Below, in pieces: positions 5,955-30,571 of a DNA stretch of 32,789 bases. The stretch is from an uncultured Clostridia bacterium (GTDB lineage: Bacteria > Bacillota > Clostridia > TANB77 > CAG-508), in assembly GCA_944390445.1 (NCBI GenBank), contig CALXQB010000005.1:1-32789 (forward strand). The letters run 5' to 3'. The notes below the pieces were generated by a model that saw only the letters and a program-made list of their open reading frames with translations, made no database searches and was not told the DNA's origin. The first letter of the stretch is position 1. Every line of letters starts with the position of its first letter. The position numbers and the translations under genes were made by a program.

Positions 5955-5964
5955 ATAGGAAACT

Positions 5965-6146
5965 ATATGAAACTTCAAAGTTTCGCAACATGAAGTGAAA
6001 ATAATCCGGCTCATTAAATTATATTTTGAAATAAAAGCTCGAACAGCCTGCTGCTGCCGGATTACTCCTTGAGCCTTGAGAGTTTTATGGAAAAATATAA
6101 TTTAATGAGCCGGATATATATGAATTTTTATTTTCAAAAGAAAAAT
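5965..6146 (+). repeat. Large hairpin element, copy 1 (core in forward orientation)
   Basis: A 40-nt left flank (5965-6004) is followed by a perfect 24-bp inverted repeat (arms 6004-6027 and 6092-6115) enclosing a 64-nt core (6028-6091). The right flank includes TTTTCAAAAGAAAAAT (6131-6146). The same flanks recur in the same orientation at 9519-9689, but there the core is inverted (61 of 64 bases match as the reverse complement). The left flank itself holds a GAAACTT/AAGTTTC hairpin. There are no open reading frames of note, so it is non-coding. Confidence 0.85.
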
Positions 6147-9124: not shown

Positions 9125-9475
9125 ATGGCAAGAGTAAAAACAGCAAGGACAACAAGAGCAAGACATAAAAAAATATTAAAACAAGCAAAAGGATACTATG
9201 GAGCAAAAAGTATTAGATTTAGAATGGCTAACCAAGCTGTCATGAAATCATTAAAATATGCGTATGTAGGAAGAAAGGACAAAAAGAGCAATTTTAGAAA
9301 ATTATGGATTGCTAGAATTAATGCGGCAAGTCGCCAAAACGGATTAACTTATAGCAAACTAATTGCAGGATTAAAAAAAGCCAATGTAGTAATTAACAGA
9401 AAAATGTTATCAGAAATTGCAATATCTGATCCAAAAGCATTTTCAGAAATTGTAGAAATTGCAAAAAAAGCATAA
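9125..9475 (+). CDS. rplT: 50S ribosomal protein L20
   Basis: A 116-residue L20 (bL20). It opens [20 protein letters not shown], has [17 protein letters not shown] and [18 protein letters not shown], and ends in a short helical tail. The protein binds 23S rRNA early in assembly. In low-GC Gram-positives it is also the repressor that acts on the infC leader. Last gene of infC-rpmI-rplT, with a strong terminator overlapping its stop codon. Confidence 0.98.
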
Positions 9476-9508
9476 AGTGGACGTAAGTTCACTTTATGCT
9501 TTTTTTGT
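9470..9508 (+). terminator. Terminator of infC-rpmI-rplT
   Basis: GCATAAAGTG, beginning at the last codons of rplT, pairs with CACTTTATGC, followed by seven T. Strong intrinsic terminator. Confidence 0.92.
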
Positions 9509-9518
9509 ATATGAAACC

Positions 9519-9689
9519 ATATGAAATTTCAAAGCTTAGCAACATAAAGTGAAAATAAAATGCTCCGGCTCATGACCTTATATTTTTCCATAAAACTCTC
9601 AAGGTTCAAGGGGTAATCCGGCAGCAGAAGGCTGTTCGAGCTTTTATTTCAAAATATAAGGTCATGAGTCGGATTTTCAAAAGAAAAAT
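9519..9689 (+). repeat. Large hairpin element, copy 2 (core inverted relative to copy 1)
   Basis: The left flank 9519-9558 matches copy 1 in the same orientation (36 of 40). A 23-bp inverted repeat (arms 9564-9586 and 9651-9673, one G-T pair) encloses the 64-nt core 9587-9650, which is the reverse complement of the copy 1 core with three differences. The right flank TTTTCAAAAGAAAAAT (9674-9689) is identical and in the same orientation. Three arm positions differ from copy 1 and are complementary within each copy. It lies between the convergent rplT and spoVAE genes. Confidence 0.85.
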
Positions 9690-16888: not shown

Positions 16889-16955
16889 GTAAAGTAATTT
16901 ATGAAAATGGTGGGGCGATTTTAAACGCCTGTTCTTCGGAAAAATTTAAAAGCAC
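16889..16955 (+). repeat. 5'-leader palindromic repeat, copy B
   Basis: Starts with the conserved TGTAAAGTAATTTATGAAAA and contains GGGGCGATTTTAAACGCC and TTCTTCGGA. The right arm is degraded (AAATTTAAAAGC in place of AAATTACTTAAAGC). It ends about 20 nt before the pilB start codon. Confidence 0.7.
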
Positions 16956-16974
16956 ATACAAAGGAGGAAAGAAA

Positions 16975-18594
16975 ATGGCAAAAGTACCAATTGGAATCGA
17001 ATTAGTAAGAAGAGGTGTTGTATCAGAAAGTGACATTAATAAAGCAATTGAATATCAAAGAAGTCAACCAACGAAAAAAATAGGAGATATTTTACATATA
17101 TTAGGGTTATGCGATGATGAAATTCTAATAAAAGAAATTGGTGATATTTTAGGAGAGACACCGATTCTTTTAAAACCAGAAGACATCACAATTAATGTTA
17201 CGGATTATATATCAAGTGATGTTATAAGACAAAATAAAGCTATTCCATTTGATATTTCAGGAGGAAAAATTAAAGTATGTTTTGCAGATACAGTAAACAA
17301 AAGAGCAATGGAAACAGTAAGACTTTTGCTTTTAAACAAAGGTCTTATTATGGAGAGATATATTACATTTGAAAGTAATATAGAAAGGATTATAGAATCT
17401 TTACAAGGAAAAGCAAAAGATAAAATCATAGCAAGCAAAGATATAACAGAATTTGTGGATTCTGTTATCAAAACAGCATTTACCAAAAGAGCAAGTGATA
17501 TTCACATAGAACCTCTAGAAAATCAAGTAAGAGTTCGTTATAGGGTAGATGGGGAATTAATTACCGTTACTAATGCGGAAAAAGAAAAGCAAGCTCAAAT
17601 CATAGGAAGACTAAAAGCTATTTCTAATATGCACCAAGAAAAACAAGAAGCACAAGATGGTAGAATTGAATCTTACCCAGATTATAATATTCGTGTATCA
17701 TCTCAAAAAAATATATATGGAGAAAAATTTGTACTAAGATTATTAAAGAAAAATTCGGATATTAGGCACATATTTGAACTTGGATTTCCAGGAGACGAAA
17801 ACATTTTAAATAAAGGATTCAATAAAAGAAATAGTATTACTATTGTAGCTGCTCCTACAGGAGAAGGAAAAACAACAACATTATATAGTATTATTGACTA
17901 TTTAAACCGACCTGAAATTAATATCACAACGATTGAAGACCCAGTAGAAATTCGTATTCCAGGATTAAATCAAATTGAAATTGATCCTAAAACAAGTTTT
18001 TCCGGGGCATTAAGAACCGTTTTAAGACAAGACCCTGATATTATTTTAGTGGGAGAAATTAGAGATAATGAAACGGCAGAAATTTCTATGCAAGCAGGAC
18101 AAACAGGACACTATGTTTTATCAACCATCCATACAATTGATAGTATAGAAGTTGTGACTAGATTAAGAAAAATGGGAGTTTCCAATTACGATATTGCAAG
18201 TACATTAGCAACAACAGTATCTCAGAGATTAGTTAGAAAATTATGTAAAAAATGTGCAAGAGAAAGAGAGTTTAATGATAAAGAAAGAGCAGTAATAAGA
18301 GCAATGGAAGAAAAATATCATGTGTCTCTTAATTTAGAAGGAAAGAAAACTTATGATCCTGTTGGATGCAAAGATTGCGATTATACAGGATATTATGATA
18401 GAATTGGTATTTTTGAAATTTTAATGCTATCAGAAACCATCAAAGAATTAATTACAAAAAATGCCTCAAGCTTAGAGATTAGGGAGCAAGCTTTAAGAGA
18501 GGGATATGAACCATTAGTAATTGATGGAATGAGAAAAGTCATAGATGGAATTACAAATTTAGAAGAAGTAAATAAGAAATTATCCATTTATTAA
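16975..18594 (+). CDS. pilB: Type IV pilus extension ATPase PilB
   Basis: This 539-residue GspE/PilB ATPase has an N-terminal MshEN-like domain (IGIELVRRGVVSESDINKAI). The motor domain follows: RASDIHIEP, Walker A APTGEGKTTT, Asp box TTIEDPVEI, Walker B ILVGEIRD, and His box GHYVLSTIHT. A zinc site is formed by CKKC and CKDC. Walker A departs from the usual GPTGSGKTTT at two positions. It powers pilus extension from the cytoplasmic face through PilC. AAAGGAGG precedes the ATG. It heads pilB-pilT-pilC, with 15 nt to pilT. Confidence 0.95.
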   Translation: MAKVPIGIELVRRGVVSESDINKAIEYQRSQPTKKIGDILHILGLCDDEILIKEIGDILGETPILLKPEDITINVTDYISSDVIRQNKAIPFDISGGKIKVCFADTVNKRAMETVRLLLLNKGLIMERYITFESNIERIIESLQGKAKDKIIASKDITEFVDSVIKTAFTKRASDIHIEPLENQVRVRYRVDGELITVTNAEKEKQAQIIGRLKAISNMHQEKQEAQDGRIESYPDYNIRVSSQKNIYGEKFVLRLLKKNSDIRHIFELGFPGDENILNKGFNKRNSITIVAAPTGEGKTTTLYSIIDYLNRPEINITTIEDPVEIRIPGLNQIEIDPKTSFSGALRTVLRQDPDIILVGEIRDNETAEISMQAGQTGHYVLSTIHTIDSIEVVTRLRKMGVSNYDIASTLATTVSQRLVRKLCKKCAREREFNDKERAVIRAMEEKYHVSLNLEGKKTYDPVGCKDCDYTGYYDRIGIFEILMLSETIKELITKNASSLEIREQALREGYEPLVIDGMRKVIDGITNLEEVNKKLSIY

Positions 18595-21111: not shown

Positions 21112-21214
21112 TGTAGGGTGTCGGCGCCCACGCCGACCCATGCTACGAAGAAATTTCTTGAAATGTAGGGGTGATTTTAATCGCCCGTTCTTCGAAGAAA
21201 TTACTTAAAGCAAA
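21112..21214 (+). repeat. 5'-leader palindromic repeat, copy C (composite)
   Basis: Two units in tandem. The first is TGTAGGG with a GTCGGCG/CGCCGAC hairpin. The second is ATGTAGGGG with GATTTTAATCGCCCG, the palindrome TTCTTCGAAGAA and the right arm AAATTACTTAAAGC. A second AAATTTC run sits between them. It ends 29 nt before the start codon of the ROK kinase. Confidence 0.75.
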
Positions 21215-21235
21215 GATATTTGAAGGGAGTAAAAT

Positions 21236-22117: not shown

Positions 22118-22149
22118 ATGATGGAAATTTTCGTAAAACCTTATTTTTA

Positions 22150-22247
22150 CTGTCAATGGGGACGGAGACTTTGACAGCATTTCAAGCAAATTATTTTTCT
22201 TTTTTAGATTTATGAAATGTTGTCAAAATCTCCGTCCCCATTGACAG
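22150..22247. repeat. 35-bp inverted repeat with GGGGACGGAG motif
   Basis: The left arm 22150-22184 (starting CTGTCAATGGGGACGGAGA) and right arm 22213-22247 are complementary at 33 of 35 positions, counting one G-T pair as a mismatch. A 28-nt A/T-rich loop separates them. GC content is clearly above the surroundings. It could be a non-autonomous palindromic mobile unit; no transposase is present in the window. It also lies where a terminator for the ROK kinase would be expected. Confidence 0.75.
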
Positions 22248-22296
22248 TTGCATAACTTTTTATTTGGATAGAAAGGATATATATGACAACATGTAA

Positions 22297-30141: not shown

Positions 30142-30212
30142 ATGTAAAGTAATTGATGAAATTGAAAGAGGAGATTTTAATCGTCCGTGCTACAAAGAAA
30201 TTACTAAAAATA
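30142..30212 (+). repeat. 5'-leader palindromic repeat, copy E (divergent)
   Basis: ATGTAAAGTAATTGATGAAA at the left, GATTTTAATCGTCCG with a preceding GGA in the middle, AAATTACTAAAAA at the right. The change CGCCC to CGTCC on the right arm is matched by GGGC to GGA on the left. It ends 27 nt before the yaaL start codon. Its bases are open in frame with yaaL and would give a false 27-residue N-terminal extension. Confidence 0.7.
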
Positions 30213-30233
30213 AGAAAAAGAAAGGAACTTAAG

Positions 30234-30514: not shown

Positions 30515-30571
30515 TAAATAGAGACAAATGCTGCACTACCATTTTGGTAGTGCAGCATTTGTCTCTATTTA
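30515..30571. repeat. 27-bp perfect hairpin between yaaL and bofA
   Basis: The arm 30516-30541 (containing GACAAATGCTGCACTACC) is exactly complementary to 30545-30570 around a 3-nt TTT loop, plus one further pair at 30515/30571. Higher GC than its surroundings. No strong T-tract follows, so its role as terminator, processing site or inserted palindrome is open. Confidence 0.85.

Follow-up and report, generated by a model that had tools for sequence, protein, structure and literature searches.

Several families of short palindromic, non-autonomous elements are known in bacteria, among them ERIC, BOX, Bcr1, YPAL and other stem-loop families (PMC2229807, PMC2267715). The hairpin family described here resembles ERIC, BOX, Bcr1 and YPAL in being intergenic and non-coding, in its length of about 100-200 bp, in occurring in tens of copies and in its conserved secondary structure. 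Unlike them, it has variable arms around a conserved multi-helix core, the orientation of this core is randomised at orthologous sites, and the same core is found with different ends; it is by these features that the family is set apart, the sequences having been compared via Rfam only. REP and REPIN elements, which are moved by RAYT (Y1) transposases (PMC3116915, PMC3733652), are likewise palindromic, structured and amplified within genomes, but differ from the hairpin family in length, core and ends, and the sole RAYT gene of the genus is flanked by GGGGCGATTTTAATCGCCC repeats and not by the hairpin module.

Three further systems share single features with this family. Gut-bacterial invertons (PMC11892184) also have short inverted repeats with an inverting spacer, whereas the arms of the hairpin are not conserved, no recombinase was seen next to the window copies, and dozens of copies are dispersed. 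Group IIC introns are known to insert after intrinsic terminators, according to Robart 2007 as cited in PMC7161350, and on that account are similar to the host element of the hairpin, which inserts directly behind a terminator hairpin and T-tract; unlike these introns, the hairpin element has neither intron RNA nor an intron-encoded protein, and the reverse transcriptase (RT) present is not linked to it. Finally, template switching between the arms of inverted repeats is reported to homogenise the arms and invert the spacers, with inversion preferring long arms (PMC8604942), and to create multi-base compensatory changes in RNA stems (PMC8794818). The family shares arm homogenisation, multi-base compensation and inversion of the loop or spacer with these cases, but unlike the cases in yeast coding sequences, where spacers are a few bp, it is a mobile element in dispersed copies, whose spacer (about 64 nt) lies between arms some 24 bp long. 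A literature search on compensatory changes in MITE palindromes returned nothing.

Hairpin copies in the window and their relatives

The window, that is, the whole stretch of 32,789 nucleotides that was analysed, is contig C5 of a 1.23-Mb draft genome (G000). The genus comparison comprises this genome and one sister genome (G001, BRZ_BL__bin74), both searched as large stretches; the genomes are draft MAGs, and the coverage of the sister genome is about 6x. Two copies of the hairpin module, each next to parts of a host element, lie in the window as follows.

5955-6003, + strand: left part of the host MITE-like element, ATAGGAAACTATATGAAACTTC..., a direct repeat with 9509-9558 (88%)
6004-6115, + strand: copy 1 of the hairpin module, covariance model match of 138.9 bits
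6004-6027, + strand: left arm of copy 1, helix P1, variable sequence, 24/24 pairs Watson-Crick
6028-6091, + strand: conserved core of copy 1, with helices P2, P2b and P3 and the unpaired GGATTACTCCTTGA motif
6092-6115, + strand: right arm of copy 1, helix P1, pairing with the left arm
6116-6143, + strand: right part of the host element, TATATGAATTTTTATTTTCAAAAGAAAA, of which other copies were found
9473-9507, + strand: intrinsic terminator AAAGTGGACGTAAGTTCACTTTATGCTTTTTTT of the gene at 9125-9475, the insertion target; the sister species has the terminator without insert
9509-9563, + strand: left host-element part flanking copy 2, immediately after the intrinsic terminator
9564-9675, - strand: hairpin module copy 2, its core inverted relative to copy 1, 135.6 bits
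9564-9586, - strand: arm of copy 2, helix P1
9651-9673, - strand: opposite arm of copy 2, helix P1

Copy 1 is 112 bp long with 24-bp arms free of mismatch, and these 112 bp form an inverted pair with copy 2 at 91% identity. Hairpin folding gives z ~ -8 against dinucleotide shuffles on either strand, well beyond chance. The arms, CTCATTAAATTATA in copy 1 and CTCATGACCTTATA in copy 2, differ at three positions (T-A to G-C, A-T to C-G and A-T to C-G, from copy 1 to copy 2), and, just as the sequence-only reading had claimed, all three substitutions are matched by complementary changes in the opposite arm. All three are transversions, so that a route through a G-U intermediate is impossible for each. 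The further G-U pair claimed for copy 2 exists on the + strand, as G9568 with T9669, but since the copies are oppositely oriented, the core strand of copy 2 itself has an A-C mismatch there.

When copies were fetched with their flanks and oriented by the core, a common layout was found: outer arms of about 24 bp enclose a core of about 64 nt, in which AAAAGCTCGAACAGCCTTCTGCTGCCGGATTACTCCTTGAACCTTGAGAGTTTT is conserved among the copies of the genus. The arms differ among copies, in several subfamilies over nearly their full length, and yet keep their complementarity, with 0-2 mismatches in 24 arm pairs for most copies. Core matches number about 34 in G000 and 41 in G001, and elsewhere in the bacterial family 24, 66 and 18 (G035, G027 and G070). 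The covariance model also detects the module in further genera of this bacterial family, several of which have tens of copies; because hits under about 45 bits may be mere palindromes (copy 1 scores 57 with R1 even when read on its wrong strand), we relied on those showing the core motif. Across a sample of 391 genomes of the class, with nine candidates scored per genome, the model gave no match outside G000.

Rfam gave no match for the window, for the element at a permissive threshold, or for the element in relatives. Three candidate identities were rejected: a known RNA family, with no Rfam match above the gathering score; a tRNA-like core, suggested by its GTTCGAG motif, ARAGORN having found none; and phage carriage, three exact core patterns being without hits in viral contigs.

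On this comparative sequence evidence, the family is best read as new, structured palindromic mobile elements that are absent from Rfam. The explanation that we favour, and consider rather probable, is that the hairpin module rides on MITE-like non-autonomous elements, apparently scattered through the intergenic DNA of one family of small-genome Clostridia, with a core that is structurally selected and arms that are complementary mainly through correction at the DNA level. More tentatively, the family may represent an unrecognised class of structured nucleic acid, where one folded core would be carried by several unrelated miniature transposons across the bacterial family, would act as single-stranded DNA or RNA in mobilisation or host control, and would have its arms renewed and its core flipped by template switching. 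The family contributes a structured element, without counterpart in Rfam, to an uncultured Clostridia family in which a genome can have as many as 66 matches, and its core turns up inside elements whose ends differ.

Covariation in the arms and the core

The sequence-only reading had proposed a covariation test on homologous copies, and its outcome is very strongly positive, with pairing far above shuffles within the genus and across genera. Within the genus, a sequence-only MAFFT alignment of 61 copies has 95.8% of its paired cells complementary, compared with 82.9% in shuffled and 35-48% in slid controls, and two-sided changes occur at 19 of 37 pairs (0 of 500 shuffles being as high). Across genera, 94.1% of cells pair in an alignment of 26 sequences (66.1% shuffled) and 31 of 37 pairs show two-sided changes; this alignment was fitted to the model, so these counts lean towards structure, but the changes are still directly readable. 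By itself, however, a passed covariation test is unable to tell selection on a fold from correction of the arms.

Along a minimum spanning tree joining 56 distinct copies, the outer arms have 62 two-sided Watson-Crick changes (36 transversions and 26 transitions) against 39 one-sided changes, evolving about twice as fast as the core and mostly via two-sided changes; this inference, like that on core flips below, draws on two species only. Some tree edges carry 4-7 double changes, 7 being the most on one edge, and on a few such edges the core is unchanged or nearly so; L018 and L019 differ by three double changes and nothing else. The mismatches in the outer arms comprise 19 G-T and 15 A-C, and because the two are about equally frequent, no strand is favoured in the arms. 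Judged from these patterns, selection on an RNA fold is probably not the whole story for the outer arms, for which the correction alternative fits best, and the matched arm changes probably arise in part from DNA copying across the hairpin.

The core behaves differently. Across genera, GC, AU, UA and CG pairs are found in P2, UA, CG, AU and GC in P2b, and AU and GC in P3, and helix variants such as CTC/GAG, TTC/GAA, CCC/GGG, TAC/GTA and ATC/GAT, which can be read directly, surround a largely constant GGATTAC...CCTTGACC motif. Thus, the core keeps its fold (P2, P2b and P3) and its unpaired motif while its helices change in compensating pairs. These conserved unpaired bases, together with the cross-genus covariation, fit an inner core fold under selection, and a folded single strand, DNA or RNA, would most likely be needed for spread of the element or be bound by a factor. 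Of the two sources that the sequence-only reading had offered for the paired changes, a selected fold and replication-linked arm correction, each thus fits one part best, the former the inner core and the latter the outer arms.

A functional structured RNA, transcribed and with all its helices including the arms kept by stepwise compensatory mutation, is an unlikely explanation for the whole module. It agrees with the cross-genus covariation in the short inner helices and the conserved unpaired bases, and with the 13 G-T to 3 A-C mismatches in the inner helices on the core strand, an excess that is expected if the core strand folds, many of the G-T pairs coming from one lineage. It is at odds with the near equality of G-T and A-C in the outer arms (19:15), the dominance of transversional double changes there, the random orientation relative to flanking genes between orthologues, the tens of copies per genome with presence/absence variation, and the want of an Rfam match.

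Still less probable, at the other extreme, is that these are neutral palindromic MITEs, whose arms and core would be complementary by template switching only and whose core would be conserved owing to recent spread. Template switching is able to make multi-pair compensatory changes (PMC8794818), and copies within a genome are close to each other; but genera between which the arms cannot be aligned still share the core motif and the inner helices, and the core lies inside elements with different ends (GTTGCATAGGAAA, AATGTCATTAAG and GTTACCATTCA). Compensatory changes are commonly taken to prove that an RNA structure is under selection; here, a mutational mechanism, template switching, explains much of the arm covariation better. 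The family, which offers orthologous pairs and in-place inversions besides its tens of copies, is a natural test case, and it bears on how R-scape-type covariation tests are read for palindromic repeats.

Inversion of the core between orthologous loci

Between G000 and G001, the core was found flipped at 7 of the 14 orthologous loci with both flanks mapped and in the same orientation at the other 7, which means that core orientation is randomised between orthologues. At one pair of loci (L029/L075), the outer palindrome around the core is flipped too. Most of the flips are unlikely to be assembly artefacts because the length of the arms (about 24 bp) is below the k-mer size typical of assembly. 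Among control inverted repeats outside the family in the same stretches, about 31 had arms of at least 12 bp, and one of these was flipped; when the minimum arm length was 14 bp, 1 was flipped and 7 were not (Fisher p 0.17 vs the family). Hence, the excess of flips stands out from the controls as a whole but not from the long-armed ones, which are few, and for this reason a core-specific recombinase may yet be involved. Nor is inversion universal, since in another genus, g35, the core has one orientation relative to the TAGC/GCGGA end markers in all listed copies; no orthologous pairs were found between the two g35 species.

In published work, homogenised arms combined with an inverted spacer are the mark of template switching across inverted repeats, and both are found together here. 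In the mechanism that we propose, the arms would pair with each other during replication to form a DNA hairpin or cruciform; one arm would then be copied onto the other by template switching, which would sometimes flip the spacer as well. Arm complementarity would thereby be largely maintained by mutation, with the fold of the core additionally selected.

The least probable explanation is a programmed inverton, in which a site-specific recombinase acting on the arms flips the core and so switches a signal for neighbouring genes: half of the orthologous loci are indeed flipped within the same flanks (both orientations being seen between species) and tyrosine recombinase genes are present in both genomes, but recombinase sites should be conserved, whereas in this family conservation is found in the core and variation in the arms. 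Moreover, flips occur at loci with unrelated arms; the outer palindrome can flip as well, as did one unrelated 14-bp inverted repeat; about half of the copies lie between convergent genes, where there would be little point in switching a promoter; and no recombinase gene was recognised in the ORF list beside the two window copies.

The unrelated repeat is a perfect 14-bp inverted repeat with a 12-nt spacer (L140, 9123-9162), flipped between the two species; from this flip, spacer inversion may be general in these genomes.

Host elements, insertion sites and mobility

The sequence-only reading had also raised a structured mobile unit as a possibility, and this is now well supported by dispersed copies, presence/absence at orthologous sites, and terminal inverted repeats (TIRs) with duplications in g35. 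The left host part of the 5955-6003 type is also found elsewhere without the hairpin, the insert of copy 1 is missing at the orthologous G001 site, and at another locus (L066) the insert lies directly behind a terminator, GCTCGTTTTAACGAGCTTTTTT, that is uninterrupted in G000. Presence and absence at orthologous sites were seen for L066/L150, for window copies 1 and 2 vs L120, and for L071/L151. For a lone module (L079), the flanks have diverged, and a clean empty site is not delimitable.

By an automatic test, 20 of 29 host left ends lie behind a hairpin and T-tract, compared with 22% of random positions, and several further ones adjoin a hairpin and T-tract with a longer loop. Placed copies are intergenic in 49 of 50 cases; the remaining one overlaps the 5' end of a long ORF, the start of which is uncertain. 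Gaps between convergent genes hold 24 of the 49 intergenic copies but make up 66 of the 451 background gaps (Fisher p about 1e-7). In being dispersed in many copies and lacking coding capacity, the family agrees with MITE-like elements.

In genus g35 (L233-L264, two species), the module is embedded in units of about 190-195 bp bounded by GTTACCATTCA inverted termini, and several copies have 8-bp target duplications, e.g. TGTCTATA, GTTTCTTT and GACTTCTC. TIRs with a target duplication are clear in g35 and in one nested copy (L034), and unclear for the element type of the window copies. In genus g1, the module occurs in two different hosts and also alone, and the same core is thus found inside elements with GTTGCATAGGAAA, AATGTCATTAAG or GTTACCATTCA ends. 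The nested copy (L034, G000:C52, 383-654) is a MITE inside the core loop of an older hairpin copy, and has an apparent 9-bp target duplication, GATTMCTTC, as read from the sequence.

Because of the TIRs and the 8-bp target duplications found in g35, a related genus, we infer that a transposase may mobilise the element in trans. A search of PF01797, PF00078 and PF00589 found no transposase linked to the element, and no autonomous partner with matching ends was seen among the matches to these three. Mobilisation as a RAYT/REP system was rejected, as the RAYT gene is flanked by another repeat. Derivation from a group IIC intron, suggested by the terminator-adjacent insertion, was rejected too: the RT present is of another kind, with an RT-5 RNA, the covariance model of the hairpin has no match at the RT locus, and Rfam gave no match to a group II intron RNA.

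Other repeats and RNAs

The only Y1 transposase (RAYT) gene is flanked in both genomes by TGTAGGGGCGATTTTAATCGCCCG hairpin repeats (L118, 1443-1466 and 1985-2010), which also occur in the window at 360-431, 16905-16976, 21161-21232 and 30161-30232 and look like the REP elements of this RAYT. The RT gene with its upstream RT-5 RNA (Rfam RF03026; L160 1172-2520, L161 2190-2289) is intact in G001, and its G000 version is interrupted by stop codons. In another genus (L175, 192-342 and 556-676), an RT-14 RNA match (Rfam RF02921) lies about 200 bp from a hairpin copy, with no RT gene within the stretch examined. The window also contains two further long palindromes, one at 22149-22248, which has 36-bp arms with GGGGACGG and is absent at the orthologous G001 site, and the other at 30515-30571, which has perfect arms of 27 bp.
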